A stretch of DNA of 42,594 nucleotides from a virus, in IMG/VR virus record IMGVR_UViG_3300033145_000862, positions 1 to 42,594 of that record; one strand, written 5' to 3'. A program made the translations under genes and the position numbers. The notes under the pieces were generated by a model. That model was given only the letters and a program-made list of their open reading frames with translations. It searched no databases and was not told the origin of the DNA. This document shows, one piece after another, positions 2,136 to 31,383 of this stretch (position 1 is its first letter; each line of letters opens with the position of its first letter).

Positions 2136-3212
2136 ATGGCATCTAGTGGAGGACATTGGAAAACACTTGCTGAGGCACAAAAGCTAACTCAAAGTACCAA
2201 AATTCCCGGTGTATTTGAGGAGGACATAAAGCGGAACAACCCTTTAGAAAGGTTTCCCGTAGCCCAAGCAGCCGGCACAGGCCTCAAAATAGAGTGGCTA
2301 AGAGAGTCAACTGGAACCGAGGACGCCGTTACCGAGGCTGATGTTGGTGACCAGTTGGTTTGGGGCGAGGATGTAGATTACACCGAGGTGGAGTCAACAC
2401 TGAGGTATATGTACATCCAGAGGAAACTTGACCGCTATGTCCAGAACATCTATGGCACCTACAACGACTACAAGGCTCAGGTACTGCTGGAGATGGAGAA
2501 AGGTCTCAAGAGGAAGATTGGCGACCGTATAATCTACGCTGATACTACCTATGGAGGCACTCCTACCCAGTTTGATGGGCTCCATGCCCTGGCCGCTGAG
2601 AGAGGTGCTCCGTGGACAACCTCCAGCAACACCAACAACAAGCAGAATATGGACATGGCCAGCGGTGCCCTCAGCCTGCTGTACCTCAGAACCCAGATAG
2701 ACAATATGAGGTACGGTGTATCCGAAATACTCATTCCAGCCCAGCTAGGCATCCGGTTTGATGCTGCCTACCAGGAACGTGGTTTCACCTACTCCGTTTC
2801 CAGTAACGAGACTAACCACTTCATGATGCTTACCCAAAGCGTCAATGAGTTGGGTAGGCCAATCCTATTCTTCATGGGTATCCCACTGGTTAGAACCGAT
2901 TACCTTGTCCGTGAGGAGGATGGAACCGGCACCGGCAGCACCAGCAACAAGAGAGCCAAGTATAGCTCCACCGAAGCCTTCTCCCTATTCTGTGTCAAGT
3001 ATGGTAATGTCCTGGCCAGAGAGCCCGGTATTACCTATGCCTATGGTGGCACAGAAGGTGAGGGCGACCTTTACGAGCTATGGACTTGGGAGCGCCTGGA
3101 GGACTACAATGCTGGTGGCATGAGGATGGACAGCTATGGTTCCGTGCTACTCGGTTCCACGCTGTGCCTCGGAAGAATTTTTGACATAACCGATGAGGCG
3201 CTAGTAGCATGA
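2136..3212 (+). CDS. Major capsid protein (HK97-fold type, probable)
   Basis: The product is 358 residues, a normal size for an HK97-fold coat protein without a large insertion. It follows the scaffold by 13 bases, with GGAGG before the ATG. The N-terminus (KIPGVFEEDIKRNNPLERFP) resembles the N-arm of coat subunits. The centre contains a long helix-rich region (YNDYKAQVLLEMEKGLKRKI) like the spine helix, followed by the segment FDGLHALAAERG common in phage coat proteins. The C-terminal half is mixed beta and ends in hydrophobic LGRIFDITDEALVA. I infer that it forms the icosahedral shell. Confidence comes from order (terminase, portal, scaffold, coat), length and general pattern. Confidence 0.82.
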   Translation: MASSGGHWKTLAEAQKLTQSTKIPGVFEEDIKRNNPLERFPVAQAAGTGLKIEWLRESTGTEDAVTEADVGDQLVWGEDVDYTEVESTLRYMYIQRKLDRYVQNIYGTYNDYKAQVLLEMEKGLKRKIGDRIIYADTTYGGTPTQFDGLHALAAERGAPWTTSSNTNNKQNMDMASGALSLLYLRTQIDNMRYGVSEILIPAQLGIRFDAAYQERGFTYSVSSNETNHFMMLTQSVNELGRPILFFMGIPLVRTDYLVREEDGTGTGSTSNKRAKYSSTEAFSLFCVKYGNVLAREPGITYAYGGTEGEGDLYELWTWERLEDYNAGGMRMDSYGSVLLGSTLCLGRIFDITDEALVA

Positions 3213-3274
3213 CCTGTTGGGTAGGTAAAAGGATGATGACCCATCATCCAAAAATAAAAGAGGAGTAAAGTAAA

Positions 3275-4090
3275 ATGAGTGCGTTTATCCACAAGTTAAT
3301 AAATACCAAAAATGGTGTGATGGTATTGCCCAGAGTTGATACCAATGACCTGGTTAAGTTGACCGAGCCGGATGTCAGGGCTGCGACCGCAGTCCAGATT
3401 TTCCCCATAGGCACAGCCCTAATCACCGATGATGGCGTATTCAGGTATGCCAAGAATGGTGGTTCTGCCATCACCATCGGTAAGCTGGCTGCCAGTCCTG
3501 CTACCCTTCATGCCGACTACGACAACGATGTAGCGGTGGCTGCTGCCGCCTCTGTAGGTGATACCTCAGTAACCATTACTGCATCTTCCAACCAAGCTAT
3601 CACAGCCAACTACTTCAAGGATGGCTGGCTGTCAATCAACGATGAGGCTGGAGAAGGCGCCTGTTACAAGATTAAAAGCCATCCTGCCGCAGCAAAGAGT
3701 GCCAGTTGTGTCCTGACACTGGTTGACCCATTGGAGGTAGCACTTACTACCAGTTCACAGGCTGCCCTACAGAAAAACATCTACGACTCCATCATAGTCA
3801 GTCCTACGACACCTACCGGAATTCCTGTAGGAGTTATCTGGGTCTCCAGCTTTACCGCCAGCTACTATGGCTGGATTAAGACCAAAGGCATAGCTCCAGT
3901 CCTGTGCCAAGGTACTGTATTAGTAGGCAAACACGTTGTGGTAGGTTTAACTGATGCAGGCTCGGTGGATGTCCAACCCTTAAACAGCGTAGATGCATCA
4001 GGGCAGGAGATTGTGGTTGGTACAGTTCTAAAGGCTGCCGCTGATACCGAGTATAGCTTGGTGAAGTTAGACCTTGACCCAAGTTGGTGA
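3275..4090 (+). CDS. Capsid decoration or head-fibre protein (probable)
   Basis: The product is 271 residues, rich in Ala, Thr, Val and Asp and predicted almost entirely beta, with repeated short strands (DVAVAAAASVGDTSVTITAS) typical of surface-exposed jelly-roll or Ig-like virion proteins. It follows the coat gene by 62 bases with an AGAGGAG ribosome site at a good distance. Genes here in phages commonly encode capsid cement or fibre proteins. The N-terminal words NGVMVLPR resemble NGVLIIPR in the product of 9373-9978, so the two may share a capsid- or tail-anchoring motif. No enzyme motif is seen. It could also be a head-completion protein. Confidence 0.55.
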   Translation: MSAFIHKLINTKNGVMVLPRVDTNDLVKLTEPDVRAATAVQIFPIGTALITDDGVFRYAKNGGSAITIGKLAASPATLHADYDNDVAVAAAASVGDTSVTITASSNQAITANYFKDGWLSINDEAGEGACYKIKSHPAAAKSASCVLTLVDPLEVALTTSSQAALQKNIYDSIIVSPTTPTGIPVGVIWVSSFTASYYGWIKTKGIAPVLCQGTVLVGKHVVVGLTDAGSVDVQPLNSVDASGQEIVVGTVLKAAADTEYSLVKLDLDPSW

Positions 4091-10231: not shown

Positions 10232-11961
10232 TGGGTTTAACACTACCAGAGTTCAGGTCTTTAATAGCCACTGATTTAAAGGTAACGGTGGGTACCGAAA
10301 TATCCCAGGCAGAGTTGAACCGTGCCGTGCAAAGGACTGTGGATGACCTCAGCCGCTATATGCCATTGGAGAAGGTCTATGAGGAAACCCTCAGCTTCAC
10401 GGTTACTGATGAGTCCTTTACCACACCAGATACCGCTGACCCTGATGCCATAGTGGACGCAGCCGACCTTAGCTCCACAACTGCTGGTGATACCTTGACC
10501 ATAACTGACCATACTCCTGATATGCCCAGGAGATTGACCGTAACCCTGACTGATGCCGATAGCTCTATTACCCAACTAACCGTTATCATTAAGGGTATTG
10601 ACCAGGATGGCAATTACATAGAGGAAAGCTGGTATCTCAGCGACCTTGTAAGTGGTACAGCCAAGCAAGGCAACCTCTACTTCAAGAGGGTTATAGAGGT
10701 AGAGGTAGATGCCATAGACGGTAACGGTGCATCAGATACATTGGATGTAGGTACAGGTAACGCCTATGACAGCTATGTGTTTCTGGATAACAAACCTATC
10801 AGGCCAGGAAGTGAGACTGTTACCAATGCTGCCGGCACCACTACCTACACCAGAGATACTGACTACCGAATGGATTACATAAATGGAGCCGTCAAGTTCA
10901 TTAATGGTGGTGATATGGCAGCAGGAACCAGCTACCTGATAGATTATACCAAGAGCCGCCTAGGATTGGATATTAGCTCCATCATACCAGTAGCAACCAG
11001 GATAGTAAGGGTGGAATATCCTACTAACCTTGTACCTCAGCAGTTTGTTAACTTTAATATCTACGGAGACTTCCTCTACATAGCCAGCAAGAAAACTGGC
11101 CAGTCCCAGGAGGAATTATCCACAAGTGCTGACCATATAGCCATCTACTATGAGAGGAAGCATATGCCACCCAGTGAGCATAGTCCTGGCAGCTACCCTG
11201 ATGTGCTGGATGAAGTAGTAGCCATAGGCGCTGCTGGTTATGCCTTACTTACTGAGGCACAGCAGCATGAGCAGCAGGCTGCCACAGACCTTAATAGTTT
11301 AAGGACAGAGTTAGGATTAACCACATCCATACATACTGATGTTGCATCTGCTCTGGATAAGGTAGCTACCTACCTGGAGGATAACACCAGCGAGGATGCC
11401 AAGTCCTGGCTGACCAAAATTACCACTGATGCTGCCGACCTTAGGACAGCCCTGGAAACTGCGGTGGATGCCGTAGCTACCAATTTAGGATTAGTATTTA
11501 CCACCTCGTTGGATAAGGCTGATACTGGTGCTGAGGCATACCTTGACGCTGGTGATGATAAGATTGATGCTGTTAATATAGGTAGCAGGGTAGCCGAAAG
11601 CTATGCGGATTATGCTAGAGCCAGGTCGGATATAGCCAGCATTAGGGTAAATTCCTGCCTAGCTTACATACAGGAAGCCAATACCAGGTTAGCCAATCTG
11701 AATAGCTACATCCAGCAGGCAGCAGGCTGGAGGGACATAGCCACTGGATTTATAGCCGAGGCAGTCCAAAGGATAGCGGAGATAAACAGCCACCTGGCTG
11801 AGGCAAGCCAATGGGCAGAGGCAGTTAATGGAGATATGGTATTAGCTGACCGTTTCAGGACAGAAGGCCTGGCCAGGCTTAACGAATTCCACAACATCCT
11901 TCGTAATAAGGCAGAATACCGTAAGCGTATAAGTTCTGTGCCGGTAAGGCAACCAGCATAA
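10231..11961 (+). CDS. Neck/head-tail adaptor-like protein with long helical C-terminus
   Basis: The product is 576 residues from the ATG at 10231, which follows AAGGAGG. An upstream in-frame ATG at 10180 lies inside the preceding gene and is rejected. Residues 1-55 (LTLPEFRSLIATDLKV, then ELNRAVQRTVDDLSRYMP) match the four-helix start of connector/neck adaptors that dock under the portal. About 55-270 hold Ig-like beta domains. Residues 330-576 are long helices with repeated Ala, Asp, Glu and Ile heptads. The helical half could be a trimeric stalk. It is the last late gene before the terminator. Adaptor identity is a moderate inference from the N-terminus; a tail-stalk role is equally compatible. 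Confidence 0.55.
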   Translation: MGLTLPEFRSLIATDLKVTVGTEISQAELNRAVQRTVDDLSRYMPLEKVYEETLSFTVTDESFTTPDTADPDAIVDAADLSSTTAGDTLTITDHTPDMPRRLTVTLTDADSSITQLTVIIKGIDQDGNYIEESWYLSDLVSGTAKQGNLYFKRVIEVEVDAIDGNGASDTLDVGTGNAYDSYVFLDNKPIRPGSETVTNAAGTTTYTRDTDYRMDYINGAVKFINGGDMAAGTSYLIDYTKSRLGLDISSIIPVATRIVRVEYPTNLVPQQFVNFNIYGDFLYIASKKTGQSQEELSTSADHIAIYYERKHMPPSEHSPGSYPDVLDEVVAIGAAGYALLTEAQQHEQQAATDLNSLRTELGLTTSIHTDVASALDKVATYLEDNTSEDAKSWLTKITTDAADLRTALETAVDAVATNLGLVFTTSLDKADTGAEAYLDAGDDKIDAVNIGSRVAESYADYARARSDIASIRVNSCLAYIQEANTRLANLNSYIQQAAGWRDIATGFIAEAVQRIAEINSHLAEASQWAEAVNGDMVLADRFRTEGLARLNEFHNILRNKAEYRKRISSVPVRQPA

Positions 11962-16590: not shown

Positions 16591-17094
16591 CTATTCATTA
16601 ACATTCACAGACGCTTTATTTAGACGTTCAGACGTCTCTTGAATACGCTTATGACGTTTGCTATGACAGCTAGAGCATAGCAGAACGATATTTGCAGGCT
16701 CATCTTTACCACCCTGCAATAATGGAACTATATGATGTAAATAACCATGATTGTTCTTGTCCCTGTCTTTTGGTATAGTTGCACCACAATCTTGGCATTG
16801 GTAGTTATCCCTTTCCATTATGGCTTCCATAATAACTGGTCTTATTCTGCTTGGAAAGTACAATGCTGACCTGTGCCTGTTGTAACATTCCTTGGAGCAG
16901 TATATTTGCCTAGCATGGGTTTGTATAAATGTAGAATTGCATAATGGACAAACTTTTTCAGGATATGGCTTACTTTTGATATACTTAGCCAGGCGGCAAC
17001 TCTTGGAGCAATAAACCTGGTCTGGCCTGTTAGGTATAAACTCTTTACCACAATGTTTACATTCTATTGGTACGGCTGTATTCCTATAACTCAT
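16591..17094 (-). CDS. HNH homing-type endonuclease with two zinc fingers
   Basis: The product is 167 residues. Two tandem zinc modules come first: C12-x2-C15 with C29 and C33 (CKHCGKEF and YCSKSC), then C49-x2-C52 with C66 and C70. The HNH nuclease follows: C100-x2-C103, H120-H121 (HHIVPL), N135 and C140-x2-C143-H144 (LLCSSCHSKRH), complete with the metal site. It is free-standing; its start overlaps the end of the RecA-like ATPase gene by 4 bases. It probably spreads as a homing nuclease, cutting phages that lack the insertion. The zinc modules resemble the one in the LAGLIDADG protein at 23909. Confidence 0.92.
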   Translation of the reverse strand: MSYRNTAVPIECKHCGKEFIPNRPDQVYCSKSCRLAKYIKSKPYPEKVCPLCNSTFIQTHARQIYCSKECYNRHRSALYFPSRIRPVIMEAIMERDNYQCQDCGATIPKDRDKNNHGYLHHIVPLLQGGKDEPANIVLLCSSCHSKRHKRIQETSERLNKASVNVNE

Positions 17095-17891
17095 TGTACT
17101 CCTTTAATCATCTTAATAGCCTTATCAATCTTCTCAAAGGTAGGCTCCTCAAACACCATGCCTTCTAACTGTTTGACCTCGGCCAATTCCACTTTACAGA
17201 ATGGCTTGGCTTTGGCACTATCCCAGTAGGTATGCACCATCACATCAGCACTATCACCGAGTTGGGACCAACCGTGCCTTACCCTTTTACCAGTCCTGAC
17301 CTCTGCTATGGTTCCGTCCCGCTGTGGTTGAGGAGCATATTCATCTGTAGCATGGTGGGTTAATACCAAATGCTTACCTCTAGCCTTGGCATTATAAATA
17401 AAGCCTCTCATGCGGGTGTAAGGCTCCCTGTATTCCAATGGAGTTAGTGATGACCTGAGGGATTTCTCACCTGGTTTCAGGTTACCATTAGCATCCAGTT
17501 GTGCCTCCTGCTTTTCTTGCAGGTAGCCCTGGCATGTAAGCTCATATAGCAGGGTACCTGTATCCACTACTATGGTAGCTACATCCTCATCCAAATGCTT
17601 AATGAACTTACCAGCAAATTGGTAGAATAGCTCCTTCATACCTACAATGATTTTGCTAGGTCTAATGGTGTTGTTAATGGCATCCAATTGGCCTATTTGG
17701 AAGGGTATGATATACTGCTCCAGCTTTATCAAACCTTGCTCTGTCCAGTCAGCTATTGGCAGGTGCGGTAGGTTCCTATTAGCTCTGGCAAAGCCACCAA
17801 TATCTAATTCCATGTAGGCCAGTGGTTTGGGAAAACTGAGTGCTAAGGTACTCTTTGCTGTTTTATCCTCTCCATATGCTGAAAAAATCAT
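17091..17891 (-). CDS. Sak4-like RecA-fold ATPase (recombination)
   Basis: The product is 266 residues from the ATG at 17891, preceded by AGGAGGT; a longer frame reaches back into the nuclease gene upstream and is rejected. The N-terminus is an immediate Walker A loop, G7EDKTAKST (K13, S14). Walker B is ATIVVD110. A downstream sensor-like stretch is LVLTHHATDEY. This compact RecA core with no extra domains is typical of phage Sak4/UvsX-like or AAA_24 nucleotide-binding proteins used with a single-strand-binding partner for recombination. It is flanked by the LAGLIDADG nuclease upstream and the HNH nuclease downstream. Family moderately sure; strand annealing activity is inferred. Confidence 0.85.
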   Translation of the reverse strand: MIFSAYGEDKTAKSTLALSFPKPLAYMELDIGGFARANRNLPHLPIADWTEQGLIKLEQYIIPFQIGQLDAINNTIRPSKIIVGMKELFYQFAGKFIKHLDEDVATIVVDTGTLLYELTCQGYLQEKQEAQLDANGNLKPGEKSLRSSLTPLEYREPYTRMRGFIYNAKARGKHLVLTHHATDEYAPQPQRDGTIAEVRTGKRVRHGWSQLGDSADVMVHTYWDSAKAKPFCKVELAEVKQLEGMVFEEPTFEKIDKAIKMIKGVQ

Positions 17892-18382
17892 GACTGACCT
17901 CCTGCTGAGATTTTGTCCCAATGGTAGCTTCCTTTATTACCACCGCTTGAGTTACAATCATGGATTGCTAACCTTACCTTCTCTCTTAATAATTCCTCTT
18001 CCTCCGTATATGTTGAGTACCACCTGGAGGCTCCTCCATATGGATTGAAATTCATTAATAAGGCCAACTCTGCCTGTGGTTTCTTAACCTTTAGATATGG
18101 TAATACCATTTTGAGTAGTTGCTGGCATCTGTTTCCCGATGCTGTCCAATGTAGCATGGTAGACCTGTTAGATGACCTAGGATTTGTTGACCATACAAAC
18201 CCACCAAATGTGGTCTCTAACCAATCCTTCAGTATTTCGCTAGTTGAGGTAATGGATAGCTGTAGCCTGTATTGCCACCTATTATTCCTCCATTGCTTTG
18301 ACACTGCAATACATCCCTCACCATCTATAATACCAGCCAGGTAAGCTAAGTCCTCAATAGTAAAATACCTCTCCTCAGTCAT
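17888..18382 (-). CDS. LAGLIDADG homing endonuclease 1
   Basis: The product is 164 residues with a single LAGLIDADG helix, LAYLAGIIDGEGCIA at about 12-26 (catalytic acid in DGEG), so it should act as a homodimer. The second half (FGGFVWSTNPRSSNRSTMLHW, then WTASGNRCQQLLKMVLPYL) matches the DNA-binding saddle of single-motif members. It is free-standing, not in an intron, and its last codons overlap the ATG of the RecA-like ATPase. It presumably cuts within or near that gene in phages lacking it. Confidence 0.9.
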   Translation of the reverse strand: MTEERYFTIEDLAYLAGIIDGEGCIAVSKQWRNNRWQYRLQLSITSTSEILKDWLETTFGGFVWSTNPRSSNRSTMLHWTASGNRCQQLLKMVLPYLKVKKPQAELALLMNFNPYGGASRWYSTYTEEEELLREKVRLAIHDCNSSGGNKGSYHWDKISAGGQS

Positions 18383-18598: not shown

Positions 18599-18748
18599 TT
18601 ATCTGGTAACAGTCTGTTCACGAGACCAAATCATTAACCCATATACAGTAGTTTTGCCAGATAGTTTACCTGTACGAGCTATAAAGTCAGCCACTAACTT
18701 GTCTGGATGCAGCAGCTCATGCCTTTTCCTATGCATATCTGATTTCAT
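18599..18748 (-). CDS. Small basic protein, unknown
   Basis: A 49-residue protein rich in Lys, Arg and His near the start (MKSDMHRKRHELLHPDKL). Its ATG overlaps the preceding stop (TAATG) and has GGAGG nearby. No domain recognised. The spacing (10 bases to the next gene) and codon use match neighbours, so I treat it as a real gene. Confidence 0.55.
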   Translation of the reverse strand: MKSDMHRKRHELLHPDKLVADFIARTGKLSGKTTVYGLMIWSREQTVTR

Positions 18749-19632
18749 TAGCTATCCTCCTGCTGGTATAGAATACCTTTGGGACAGTTCCTGGCCACTT
18801 CACAGTCTCTGCATCTAGCTCCATCCCAACATTCCTTCTCATTACAGGGTTCATCCCAGCTACCCCGCTCCAGAGCAGTTAGTAAGGCTTTTTCCTTACG
18901 AGCAAAATATTCCTCAATCATACCCCTATCCAACCTTGGTATAGGAATACGGCAAATGTTTTTCATTATGCCTCTACTGTATGCTATGGATGTTCCACCA
19001 TCTCTGACTGTAACTTGAAGCTGCATCCTTTTTAGTTTAACGCCAACATCTTCTAGCTTATTACAGTAATTGTTTTGTTGGTACTCAGCTTCCCAGTTAT
19101 CAGCCTTTTGTGGCATAGCTTGGAACACTGAAACCATTTTAGGACTACCAGCCTTACCCCACTTGCCTGAGGTCTTATAAACCGCTCCAGATGGGTCTGG
19201 CTGTTTTCCTACCTCAACTATGCCTAGGGCTTTGGCAACCTTAAAGCTGCCCCAAAGTTTATAATCACTGAGGACAAGTCCTCCGTCCTCCTCCTCAAGC
19301 AGGTCAAATATATCCCTATCAATGTTAAGGGCTACCTCTGCCGGCAATCCTAGCTTATTGGCAAATTCCTCCAGCCCAGCATGGTGCTTGGTTCCCGCCA
19401 GCATAAATGCACGCTTGTCAGGGTCTACCACGTAGGGCTGGGTCAGTTTGAGAAATTCATACATAGTACCATTGAGGAGTTGCGTGGTGGAGGCTACTCC
19501 ATTCCACTCCCGTTCCTCAGAGATGAGCAGGAGTGTAGGCAACGTCAAACAGCGTTCTTCCATCCTACACTCCTGGAGGCAATCTTTAACTGGAACTATT
19601 TTACCGTCTGGGCATTTAAACCATTCAAGCAT
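18748..19632 (-). CDS. Cas4-like PD-(D/E)XK exonuclease with Fe-S cysteines
   Basis: The product is 294 residues from the ATG at 19632, chosen for its AGGAGGAG ribosome site and overlap with the upstream stop. Visible features: H83-H84 (motif I region), the acidic LVLSDYK (D123, K125) expected for motifs II-III, a Q/N/Y motif (QQNNYC, 185-190) and cysteines at 18, 22 and 28 with 263, 268, 274, 277 and 283, arranged like the split 4Fe-4S site of Cas4/AddB enzymes. It should be a 5'-3' or both-direction ssDNA exonuclease supplying ends for the Sak4-like ATPase. The cysteine pattern makes the family call fairly firm, but individual motif assignments are approximate. Confidence 0.75.
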   Translation of the reverse strand: MLEWFKCPDGKIVPVKDCLQECRMEERCLTLPTLLLISEEREWNGVASTTQLLNGTMYEFLKLTQPYVVDPDKRAFMLAGTKHHAGLEEFANKLGLPAEVALNIDRDIFDLLEEEDGGLVLSDYKLWGSFKVAKALGIVEVGKQPDPSGAVYKTSGKWGKAGSPKMVSVFQAMPQKADNWEAEYQQNNYCNKLEDVGVKLKRMQLQVTVRDGGTSIAYSRGIMKNICRIPIPRLDRGMIEEYFARKEKALLTALERGSWDEPCNEKECWDGARCRDCEVARNCPKGILYQQEDS

Positions 19633-20240
19633 TAACCTCTCCTCCTGTATAACTGCCCCTTCTGGTTCTTGGCGATGGTGGCTTGGGAAATGCCTTTGTT
19701 GATTGTATAATCCCATTCTGGTTCGAGATACTTCACTGGTTTGCCTTGAGCTATGGCATATTTAATTTCGCTAGTGGTTGAATTCCCGATATAACCACCA
19801 ATGTTAATAATAAAAACCTCATCGCAAAGGTCAATCTTCCTTTTATGAACCTCGTCAACTACTTCCTTAACACCTTCCCTGTCACCAATGTGTGCCTTAT
19901 CCTCGCCAAGAACATAATTATCTGGTAAAGCACACCAAGATAAAACAATATGTCCTTGTTTGGTTAAGTTCCATTGTATTACTAACATTTCAGGAGTAAA
20001 GCGAGTGGAACCACAAAGGCAAATTATTTTGCTGGGCTTACCTAATACCTCAAGCTCCACTGGCTCATACTCCTGCTCTATGAGGGCAAGGATTATGGGG
20101 ATGGCTTTGCGGAGTTGGGCTTCGGCTACATACTTAAACCACGTCATCGGGAGCCTAGGCCTAGGGATGCCCCTGAAAATTTCTCCCTCTATTTCCCCCT
20201 CCGTCAGCCTGCACTTCTCAATTAGTTCGTCTTGGTTCAT
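19632..20240 (-). CDS. Nucleoside 2-deoxyribosyltransferase-like protein
   Basis: The product is 202 residues. The C-terminal two-thirds carry the fold's marks: KIICLCGSTRF (CGSTRF at 76-81), ALPDNYVLGEDKAHIGD, then DLCDEVFIINIGGYIGNST and the helix TSEIKYAIAQGKPVKYL. This is the DUF4406/2-deoxyribosyltransferase branch of the Rossmann-like superfamily that also contains TIR- and SLOG-type NAD-binding domains. It may salvage or hydrolyse nucleosides; a signalling or anti-defence role is a possibility, not shown. The first 60 residues are a separate helical domain (KAIPIILALIEQEYEPVELE). It is coupled to the tiny membrane protein gene upstream by TAATG. Confidence 0.75.
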   Translation of the reverse strand: MNQDELIEKCRLTEGEIEGEIFRGIPRPRLPMTWFKYVAEAQLRKAIPIILALIEQEYEPVELEVLGKPSKIICLCGSTRFTPEMLVIQWNLTKQGHIVLSWCALPDNYVLGEDKAHIGDREGVKEVVDEVHKRKIDLCDEVFIINIGGYIGNSTTSEIKYAIAQGKPVKYLEPEWDYTINKGISQATIAKNQKGQLYRRRG

Positions 20241-20347
20241 TATTTATCCTCCCTAGTCAAGTAGGCATGTAAATAGAAACCTATCCACCAGCCGACTGTA
20301 ATAGATATGATTACTACGGCCACTAAATCACCAGTGGAGATGTTCAT
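20240..20347 (-). CDS. Tiny single-span membrane protein
   Basis: A 35-residue protein whose whole core is one hydrophobic span (LVAVVIISITVGWWIGFYL) ending in a charged tail (LTREDK). The ATG overlaps the upstream stop (ATGA) and its own stop overlaps the next ATG (TAATG), so the gene is bracketed by real neighbours. Possible small membrane effector; function unknown. Confidence 0.6.
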   Translation of the reverse strand: MNISTGDLVAVVIISITVGWWIGFYLHAYLTREDK

Positions 20348-20667
20348 AACTCTACCCTCCTGAAGCCTGCTTTGAGCATAGCATCCTCCGCCATGTGAAA
20401 CTTCATCCAGTCTGGATTTGTGAAAGTCTGGATAGCACCATCTTCATCGGCACATTGAGACATTCTGGGATAGGGATTATCAGGCAAGCTCTGATTATCT
20501 GCTAGCTTGACGTAGCCCGCTTCTTTGATGAGGGCAAGGATTTTGTCGGCAATAACCTGAGACTTCTGTATTAGTTCCACTGTTTGCTCGTATTCCCCCC
20601 TGCGATAATAGGCGTGGTCATGAAGTATGTCCCCCACCTTGTTGACTATCTTCTCCCTCAGTTCCAT
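20344..20667 (-). CDS. Small early protein, unknown
   Basis: A 107-residue protein with AAAGGAGG correctly placed before the ATG. Helices (VADKILALIKEAGYVKLAD) are followed by a conserved-looking Pro-rich loop (SLPDNPYPRMSQ). It lies directly downstream (in the direction of transcription) of the large structured RNA, about 30 bases from its 3' side. No function recognised. Confidence 0.6.
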   Translation of the reverse strand: MELREKIVNKVGDILHDHAYYRRGEYEQTVELIQKSQVIADKILALIKEAGYVKLADNQSLPDNPYPRMSQCADEDGAIQTFTNPDWMKFHMAEDAMLKAGFRRVEL

Positions 20668-20699: not shown

Positions 20700-21232
20700 T
20701 CTCAGGGACTGGGGCAGGTTCAACTCCTGCCTGATAGCCAATCGTTTACTTCATACCCCAGCCCCTTGCCTGAGCCTCCTTTCACGCTGGACTTACTGGG
20801 CGGACATCTCTAAGTTGGCTTTAAGTCCGCAATTAACTCCAATATCCCCCAGTTTTACCAGAAGGTAGCCAACCACCATTTACCCATTCGGCTCAGGCTC
20901 CTACCAGCCATGCTAGGAACGCTTGCACTAATCTCGTTTACCATCGGCACGTGCAATCCCTTTGAGGCTTTCGCCACACCGACTTGACGCCTAGCACTAT
21001 GCCATTATTGGTGGCTGGCAGGTTTGCTGGCTCGGTCAAACTAGGTAGGTTTCCCCGATGGTGTTGAGGTTTTCAACCTAAAATCGCCACGTGGGCTTTC
21101 AGCAGTAGACTCTCGACAAATGCAACCTACATACACACCAGCAGGCTTGCTGGCCCGGGAACTCCACAAGAGACCTACGATTGCTCCTGCTCGCCTTCTG
21201 CCTCCCGATAGTTACGGCCACCAGCAAGCCTA
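20700..21232 (-). ncRNA. Large ornate structured RNA (ROOL/GOLLD-like or new class)
   Basis: About 535 bases with no credible gene on either strand, read here in the minus direction (5' side at 21232). Perfect helices, by plus-strand position: 21143-21153 with 21221-21231 (11 bp); 21124-21130 with 21045-21051 (7); 20990-20996 with 20911-20917 (7), enclosing 20951-20956 with 20923-20928 (6); 20890-20898 with 20768-20776 (9), enclosing 20849-20853 with 20795-20799 (5) and 20825-20830 with 20800-20805 (6). The loop of the last pairs 20814-20820 with 20867-20873 (7), a pseudoknot. A GNRA tetraloop (GAAA in GGC/GCC, 20966-20975) is present only when read on the minus strand. A 3' hairpin is at 20713-20731. 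Class not assignable without a covariance model. Its exact ends are not defined. Confidence 0.75.
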
Positions 21233-21240
21233 TTCAACTG

Positions 21241-21984
21241 TTAATGTGCTTTATGGTACACACCATTCTCATCTTTGGTAACTGTACCAGCAGCCTCCAG
21301 AGGTGGCAGGAATGTACCCTGAATTATGGACTGGGTTAGCTCCGCATCACTCTTTACCAACGGGTCTTGGAAAACAATATTATTCCACTGTTGCTGGGTT
21401 TTACCATCCAGTAGATTGATGGCCTGTTGGATAGGAGTTACACTTGCTGGTGCGGCTGGTGCTGGTTGTCCAGCAGTTGCAGGTGTGGCAGCTACTCCAC
21501 TATGCGGAGTTCCACCTACACCCTCTACATAGACAACCTCCCAACATTCCCTTGGTACTTCCTGACCGGCATTACCATCCCACATCATGTGCCCTGGTGT
21601 TACCCTCCATTCCTGAACCTTGCCAATAAGAGCATCCTGGTTCTTGGCCTGTTCCTGTGGTGCGTTCTCATCCAAACCAGCGTTCAGGATTTTATCCATG
21701 CTGGCTCCAAGGACACCCATAGCGCTCTTGACCCGGTTGGAGTGCATGATGGCTATTTGCGCCACTGGGAATAGATACGGCTCAGTGGACTCAAAAACCT
21801 CCACCTCGGAGAAGTTGTAGAGAACCTCCAGCCGAGGCTGAGGCATAGCTCCTCTCTGAACCATACTGCCGGTGATGGAGTCCAGTTTACCTCTGAAATA
21901 CCTTAACGGGCTGCGAAAACCTCCAGTCTCAAATCCTCTAGTTCTTAGTTGTTCCATTACCTGTTCAGGTGTTAAATCAGCCAT
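21241..21984 (-). CDS. Early protein of unknown function
   Basis: The product is 247 residues. The N-terminal 120 residues are mixed (RLEVLYNFSEVEVFESTEPY, then a helix AIMHSNRVKSAMGVLGASM), with a disordered Ala/Pro/Thr-rich linker about 158-182 and a helical tail. A compact N-domain plus flexible linker resembles some phage single-strand-binding or annealing partners, but no motif proves that. The stop lies just before the structured RNA. The ATG has GGAGG upstream and adjoins the previous stop. I do not assign a function. Confidence 0.6.
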   Translation of the reverse strand: MADLTPEQVMEQLRTRGFETGGFRSPLRYFRGKLDSITGSMVQRGAMPQPRLEVLYNFSEVEVFESTEPYLFPVAQIAIMHSNRVKSAMGVLGASMDKILNAGLDENAPQEQAKNQDALIGKVQEWRVTPGHMMWDGNAGQEVPRECWEVVYVEGVGGTPHSGVAATPATAGQPAPAAPASVTPIQQAINLLDGKTQQQWNNIVFQDPLVKSDAELTQSIIQGTFLPPLEAAGTVTKDENGVYHKAH

Positions 21985-30729: not shown

Positions 30730-30840
30730 CATAACACTACTCCTTACCATAGATTTTATCAATAGTGCTATGACGTTGCCACTTCACAGCTTCACATATT
30801 CAGTTTTTAAGGTACGATTAGCTTATATAGCTACATTATC

Positions 30841-30869
30841 AGCATAACACAAGGCACACTGTTTGTCAA
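30841..30869 (-). promoter_or_regulatory. Early promoter 3
   Basis: TTGACA (30869-30864), 17-base spacer carrying CCTTGTGT, extended -10 TGT-TATGCT (30846-30841). About 105 bases of leader separate the expected start from the ATG of the 201-residue gene. Upstream are several operator words. Confidence 0.8.
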
Positions 30870-30877
30870 GTACCTAG

Positions 30878-30983
30878 CTTAACATAACACCATTATTTTT
30901 TAACTAATCACTGGAGCTACTCAACATCACGTAACTGCTGGAGCTACTTAACATAATACCAGCCAGCCCTTAACTTTACATAA
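30878..30983. promoter_or_regulatory. Operator region and short tandem repeat at promoter 3
   Basis: CTTAACATAA at 30878-30887 and 30947-30956, CTTTACATAA at 30974-30983 and a degenerate CTCAACATCA at 30920-30929. Two of these are embedded in an imperfect direct repeat with a 27-base period (30911-30930 and 30938-30957, CTGGAGCTACT core). No gene fits this stretch with confidence. Confidence 0.55.
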
Positions 30984-31068
30984 TATTGCTCCAGTGATAG
31001 GTACGGGTCAGTGGATTTTCAGATAGGTATTGTGTTACCCATATCCACTCGCAAATTTCCAACTCCAT
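30976..31068 (-). CDS. Tiny peptide (candidate)
   Basis: A 30-residue frame with ATG at 31068 and only a weak GGAAG upstream. The sequence (EICEWIWVTQYLSENPLT) looks like a real amphipathic peptide and its codon use matches the phage, but its end overlaps an operator word and it overlaps the better-supported peptide at 31035. Low confidence. Confidence 0.25.
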   Translation of the reverse strand: MELEICEWIWVTQYLSENPLTRTYHWSNIM

Positions 31069-31139
31069 TGATTTTCCAGCTTCCTATATCCTCCACAACC
31101 TCCCGATTTTGCGGATGTATTATTACTCCACTTAGGCAT
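31035..31139 (-). CDS. Tiny Gly/Ser/Lys-rich peptide
   Basis: A 34-residue frame whose ATG lies inside the last codons of the upstream gene, with GGAGG 6 bases before it. Composition is polar and basic with aromatic residues (SGGCGGYRKLENQWSWKF). The ribosome site is as good as those of accepted neighbours. Function unknown. Confidence 0.45.
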   Translation of the reverse strand: MPKWSNNTSAKSGGCGGYRKLENQWSWKFASGYG

Positions 31140-31383
31140 TGGGTTCCTCCACTATGCCTTTGTAAATATCATACCAATCGCTTTTGAACTTCCTAACATC
31201 AAAGCAGTAAATGCAGTAGAAGTAACCATGCAGACTTTTGGAATGGTTCAACTCCTTCCAATGATGTGCTCCACAGTTATGCTTAACCTGCAACGGTACA
31301 TTAGGATTTATCGGAGCAGCAGGACATTTCCAACTACCTGACTCCACATACCTATCACTGGCTAGCTGAGCTTTTTTACCCAT
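31132..31383 (-). CDS. Cys/His-rich early protein
   Basis: An 83-residue protein with a likely zinc site formed by KCP, NCGAHHW and YCIYC. The C-terminus is aromatic and basic (FDVRKFKSDWYDIYKG). It is in the promoter 4 operon. A DNA- or protein-binding role is likely, not specific. Confidence 0.6.
   Translation of the reverse strand: MGKKAQLASDRYVESGSWKCPAAPINPNVPLQVKHNCGAHHWKELNHSKSLHGYFYCIYCFDVRKFKSDWYDIYKGIVEEPNA

Follow-up and report, generated by a model that had tools for sequence, protein, structure and literature searches.

The tRNA cluster of phage T4 encodes two small non-tRNA RNAs of unknown function, the stable RNAs C and D (species 1 and 2). In the nut sites of lambda and the put RNA of HK022, a boxA-like motif and structured RNA are located in an early phage operon, and the ToxI RNA of type III toxin-antitoxin systems is formed by near-identical short tandem pseudoknot RNA repeats beside the toxin gene. 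ROOL and GOLLD are phage-encoded structured non-coding RNAs whose function is unknown and which are often found near tRNA islands; ROOL contains pseudoknots (PMC12286853). In Escherichia coli, insertion of BoxA relieves the Rho-dependent repression exerted by a long non-coding leader, and this relief is NusB-dependent (reviewed in PMC4807359).

Here, we analyzed a DNA stretch of 42,594 nt of an uncultured phage from IMG/VR (record IMGVR_UViG_3300033145_000862, hereafter the window), in which the minus strand of positions 20705-21231 carries about five small structured RNA modules arranged in tandem inside the early operon. This array and the family of its first module, M1, look like a new class of phage RNA. 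Judged against Rfam 15 and the open-access literature searched, both the RNA family and the array architecture appear to be new.

A tandem array of RNA modules in an early operon

The array occupies the gap between two minus-strand genes, a conserved gene for a 247-aa protein upstream (21241-21984) and a gene for a 107-aa protein downstream (20344-20667). The original prediction had described this gap as gene-free and non-coding, and indeed no open frame runs across it, each frame being interrupted by 3 to 14 stops. The helices and other features named in that prediction are all present in the sequence. Comparison of the flanking genes with Pfam, PHROG and NCBIfam gave no informative match, and the structure modeled for the 247-aa protein is weakly OB-fold/SSB-like. 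The early operon also contains, on the minus strand, a free-standing HNH homing-endonuclease gene (16591-17094, above the Pfam cut-off) and a LAGLIDADG-like homing-endonuclease gene (17888-18382, E = 2.5e-4, just below the trusted score). An AAA_24-like protein is encoded at 17091-17921 on the minus strand (below the Pfam cut-off); an AAA_24 family member of phage phi14:2 is annotated as a Sak4-like ssDNA-annealing protein. In one relative (L004, approximately 3075-3604), the homologue of the window gene at 18748-19716 is split, and the insert may encode a homing endonuclease, as judged by eye.

The modules, all on the minus strand, are 61-133 nt in size and follow one another head to tail in the order M1, M1', M3, M4 and M5, each closed by its own terminal helix. 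A boxA-like motif, ATTAACAGTTGAATAG (21230-21245, minus strand), adjoins M1 and overlaps the stop codon of the upstream gene. In M1 (21143-21231), the terminal helix (21221-21231/21143-21153) surrounds a pseudoknot core with UAACUAUCGG and AAGGCGA. The M1-like module M1' (21025-21143), which was read from the sequence, has a stem (21138-21143/21025-21030), a pseudoknot between GUAGGUU (21124-21130) and AACCUAC (21045-21051), and a further pairing of UCGG (21055-21058) with CCGA (21032-21035); scanning of M1' with the covariance models R1 and R3 (see below) gave no match above threshold. M3 (20900-21022) combines a stem (21013-21021/20901-20909) with a hairpin, CCAATAATGG (21002-21011), and the minus-strand GNRA hairpin of the original prediction, found as GGCGAAAGCC at 20966-20975. 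The stem of M4 (20767-20899), formed by 20890-20899/20768-20776, is conserved across 17 distinct M4 copies. M4 also contains a candidate 7-bp pseudoknot (20814-20820/20867-20873), whose 7-nt complement had been pointed out before and is present in a letter-for-letter check; the insert bearing it was seen in none of the relatives found. M5 (20705-20765) has a 10-bp stem (20756-20765/20705-20714), and its slot is tRNA-Leu-like in some relatives.

At the 5' side, the original prediction had proposed a switch between the 11-bp helix 21143-21153/21221-21231 and a competing 6-bp pairing, 21138-21143/21148-21153. Both pairings exist letter for letter, and the supposed two-state behavior is most simply explained by the identical stem sequence (TGCTGG/CCAGCA) of the adjoining modules M1 and M1'.

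Folding of this one sequence of the gap beats chance only moderately, with z = -2.1 for the minus strand, where 4 of 100 shuffles did equally well, and z = -1.8 for the plus strand. In 86 of 101 modules, it was the RNA strand that had the lower raw folding energy; since the z-scores showed no consistent difference, this bias is largely one of composition and was left out as evidence. It is the comparative data that provide the decisive evidence for the predicted structured RNA. Scanning the stretch with Rfam covariance models, including those of ROOL, GOLLD, OLE, HEARO, group I/II introns and tmRNA, yielded no match at the gathering threshold, nor at E up to 5, in agreement with the earlier suggestion that this may be a new class. 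No tRNA was detected in a search of the window, and no DNA similar to the stretch was found in cultured phages.

Modular variation among relatives

Seven IMG/VR contigs were reached through a search with the 247-aa protein, and many more through its alignment and three DNA patterns. In most of these relatives, a structured stretch of separable modules lies directly downstream of the 247-aa homologue on the same strand, and the homologue stands directly upstream of modules in 19 places, with identity down to ~28%. The modules of relatives have the patterns GCUUGCUGG-UGUC..CCGAG-CCAGCAAGC (M1), UGCCAGCUA-CCCGAAAGGG..-UAGCUGGCA (M3), CCUGAGCC-GA..-GGCUCAGG (M4) and GUGGGG..CCCCAC (M5). From one to six modules are present per syntenic site in IMG/VR relatives: M1 alone in L062, a short two-module form in L005 and L006, M1+M3+M4+M5 in L003, L004 and L008, M1+M3+M3+M4+M5 in L036, and several M1 with two M4 in L013. 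Modules also occur singly elsewhere, M3 before a scaffold-like gene (L041 and L043) and M1 in other gaps (L054, L058 and L069). It follows that the array belongs to the site and that its units are small and separable. Moreover, near-identical modules are shared by phages with unrelated or far-diverged proteins on either side, and thus modules move independently of their neighbors. At the same syntenic site, L023 (4713-4838) and L031 (4710-4831) have one short hairpin only, of unrelated sequence.

These observations bear on the main claim of the original prediction, according to which the stretch is a large and ornate RNA in the style of ROOL or GOLLD. Such an RNA would fold as one particle and would fit the dense structure over ~530 nt of a phage genome, and ROOL and GOLLD are themselves phage RNAs often near tRNA islands (PMC12286853). 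Nevertheless, an Rfam match is absent, and the module number at the shared site, which ranges from one to six, together with the solitary modules elsewhere, leaves this reading strongly disfavored and highly improbable.

Several candidates were rejected during the searches. The pattern match in L071, a Burkholderiales MAG, was judged coincidental and falls within a gene resembling that of a TonB-dependent receptor; those in L053, L056, L057, L059, L060, L064, L065, L068 and L070 are without the core and resemble coding sequence; and a blastn hit of L013 to Klebsiella phages (E about 0.2-0.6) was taken as chance. The bacterial and cultured-phage sets searched for modules contained no match. Nothing was found in 299 genomes from the phylum of L071's genome, in a scan run without a positive control, and R3 had no match in Cellulophaga phage phi14:2, a relative of L163.

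Covariation in M1, M3 and a wider pseudoknot family

With an M1 covariance model from whose training the window was left out (R1), the window M1 is recovered with E = 1.2e-8, and M1 is detected in 35 of 48 records, nearly always as a single copy. The M3 model (R2), in whose training set the window M3 was included, detects M3 in 34 of the 48 records (E = 2.7e-8 for the window M3 as a training member). Paired positions amount to 96.7% in M1 and 90.5% in M3, with 5 and 6 pairs, respectively, changed on both sides, and neither result was reached by any of 500 shuffles; both clade alignments were fitted to the structure, so that these pair counts lean towards it. The M1b copies of L002, L013 and L016 have near-identical loops and three different 5-bp helices (UCCUU/AAGGA, GCACU/AGUGC and CUGCU/AGCAG), the stem of the second M1 of L063 is UAGCCAG/CUGGCUA, and an M1 of L134 is closed by CGCUCUC/GAGAGCG. 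Restricted to the window's clade, the permutation test for the pseudoknot is weak (p = 0.011).

M1 is a member of a widespread phage RNA family made up of a terminal helix and an H-type pseudoknot, with a conserved core and a free closing-stem sequence ([stem]-GUGUCC..AACUAUCGG..GGCGAAA..CCGAG-[stem]). By both R1 and R3 the window M1 falls within this family; besides UAACUAUCGG and AAGGCGA, it has GUGGCC replacing GUGUCC. A core-only scan of IMG/VR in which the stem was left free returned at least 120 stretches. Among the matches listed, the flanks are strongly bimodal, with mostly either 0-2 or 4-11 further pairs, and there are stems of wholly different sequence that are nevertheless complementary, such as AAAUAUUAACAG/CUGUUAAUAUUU, GCCGCAGGG/CCCUGCGGC and UUGUGGCAG/CUGCCACAA. 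Also among the matches listed, the combination of AACUAUCGG and GG[CTG]GA, which the core search did not impose in full, tracks the paired stem (25/34 vs 3/49, Fisher p = 1e-10).

Alignment of 26 members gave pairing in 95.9% of cells and a change on both sides in 92, compared with 29.8 +/- 4 expected (0/500 shuffles), and in 49 members 123 cells have a compensatory change, compared with 29.3 +/- 4.2 expected (0/500 shuffles), members having been kept if at least 3 stem pairs formed beside the imposed G-C. The three outer stem pairs, which lie outside this selection, are paired in 25, 21 and 21 of the 26 members. The family alignment (A9) leaves out L212, whose copy is at a contig end. The pseudoknot helix CCnn/n'n'GG forms 1.44 pairs within its own sequence, as opposed to 0.62 +/- 0.14 across sequences (0 of 20,000 permutations); in the window M1 copy, this pairing is limited to GGCC/GGUC or a 2-bp CC/GG. 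The PKb helix (UCGG/CCGA) formed part of the search pattern and is uninformative alone, and the pair next to it covaries. R3, a covariance model built from contigs of the core-only scan with the window's clade excluded, finds the window M1 with 27.9 bits and E = 4.9e-6 (701 nt, filters off); in loci belonging to the wider group of the window, it detects 17 copies. When the entire window was scanned with default filters, R3 missed the window M1, probably due to a long insert in this copy. Rfam had no match at the module in any of 13 core-scan loci. One locus, L222, has two M1-family copies ~180 nt apart (10655-10712 and 10895-10949) with the same stem arms and different interiors. Covariation in homologues, to which the original prediction had looked for confirmation, is seen in relatives by pair counts, shuffles and permutations.

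The form of the core is also relevant to the idea that the locus acts as DNA, that is, as a replication origin, a site of recombination or a series of inverted repeats to which proteins bind close to replication genes. Serial inverted repeats that adjoin recombination and replication genes would suit such an element, but the core forms a pseudoknot on one strand specifically, with loops of the GNRA-like and GGCGAAA types, its orientation follows transcription, and modules are also present in other operons and in tRNA arrays. We regard this explanation as extremely improbable.

Genomic context of the modules

Only a minority of members are close to tRNAs: among the matches listed, tRNAs are present in 4 of 34 core-scan loci, and most members are away from tRNAs. 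The module starts directly after the CCA of tRNA-Gly in L142, ends 8 nt before tRNA-Thr in L210, and follows a four-tRNA island in L153. Degenerate tRNA-Leu-like modules were recognized by eye in L037 (M5), L006, and the first module of L133 and L137. They occupy the M1, M3 or M5 slot of the array. Their D-arm is GUGGCGGAA..GACGC or a near variant, and a T-arm GGGUGYAARUCCC is present in L037 and L133 (by eye); no tRNA was called by ARAGORN or Rfam in those of L006 and L037. Modules of this kind, with altered T-loops and without a tRNA call, and the fast turnover of modules could suggest that a tRNA array is decaying here and that what is left of it has little function today. Against such decay, the stem and pseudoknot covary over very diverged phages, which implies selection on structure; this argument holds for M1, and decay appears improbable.

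In 16 of 41 arrays, a count inflated by related contigs, the first module is preceded by a boxA-like TTAACA at no more than 31 nt, in comparison with 0 of 22 inner modules and a background of ~1%; many standalone module copies are without it. We take the motif to be boxA from its resemblance to the E. coli rrn sequence. A probable early promoter region was noted at 30760-31160 (minus strand), with a sigma-70-like TTGACA-17-TATGCT at 30841-30869 and repeated operator-like motifs of the TTATGTTAAGTAGCTCCAG type upstream of it. Another boxA-like sequence, CTTAAAAACTGAATA (30797-30811), comes after this promoter in the apparent early-operon leader.

The main rival explanation, and a serious one, is a cis role, in which boxA and the modules would be a nut/put-like antitermination signal, or the modules would block ribonucleases and so set the stability of a segment of the early mRNA; in either case, the RNA would stay in the mRNA. 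In 43 of 47 places of the first set, modules have the direction of the upstream gene, and such a sense-strand position in operon gaps would be equally expected of a cis element. The boxA-like motif, which is found directly 5' of the modules and recurs where the early operon begins, also agrees with a cis role, as does the sufficiency of a single module at some sites (L062 and L054). Less easily reconciled with it are the position of the array mid-operon, ~10 kb from the probable promoter, the several unrelated module classes in tandem, the members within tRNA arrays, where neighboring RNAs are excised, and the absence of boxA from many standalone copies. Taken together, a cis element is a real possibility, to which we assign less probability than to the explanation given below.

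Proposed function and significance

We tentatively favor, at slightly less than even probability, the explanation that the array encodes early-transcribed small trans-acting RNAs released by processing. The array would be transcribed together with the early operon, the boxA-like sequence would keep RNA polymerase running through the untranslated RNA, and the transcript would be cut at the terminal stems in the fashion of tRNAs, giving rise to small stable RNAs. In the infected cell, these might serve in trans as decoys or effectors directed at a host target, most likely a defense system, and phages may gain, lose and swap the modules in the manner of tRNAs. We infer processing and trans action solely from the resemblance to tRNA arrays, though most members are not near tRNAs. 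It is conceivable, although rather unlikely, that the array represents an undescribed system of interchangeable small structured RNA cartridges (the widespread pseudoknot type plus others, some of them tRNA-derived) that are expressed early, swapped among phages, and act in trans against host functions such as tRNA-targeting or nucleotide-signaling immunity.

The M1 core is a compact, strongly covarying pseudoknot RNA that is present in many diverged uncultured phages, sometimes in tRNA arrays, and absent from Rfam 15. As phage genomes are gene-dense, an untranslated RNA kept over wide divergence should be useful in infection. The modular arrays offer natural variants with which phage small RNAs could be tested as decoys, regulators or antitermination elements alongside tRNAs.

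Comparison with known systems

Like ROOL and GOLLD, the array is phage-encoded structured non-coding RNA. Unlike them, it consists of a variable number of 61-133 nt units rather than a single conserved fold with a length of about 580 nt or of more than 800 nt, and it has no covariance-model match to either RNA. As regards tRNA islands, the window contains no tRNA, and the M1-family members of L142, L153 and L210 are located in tRNA arrays, most others being outside them. With nut and put sites, the window array shares the position of structured RNA right after a boxA-like motif in an early operon; it differs in lying mid-operon and in having several module classes and pseudoknots, and an antiterminator protein was not identified. 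As in phage tRNAs, the terminal stem of the modules joins the 5' and 3' ends, and some modules retain a tRNA-Leu-like D-arm and some a T-arm with an altered loop, whereas the modules tested have no ARAGORN or Rfam tRNA match. ToxI similarly comprises tandem small pseudoknot RNAs, but the window modules differ among themselves. Finally, set side by side by description, T4 RNAs C and D are likewise small RNAs co-encoded with phage tRNAs, while the M1 family has a defined pseudoknot core, is found widely outside tRNA clusters, and forms tandem arrays.
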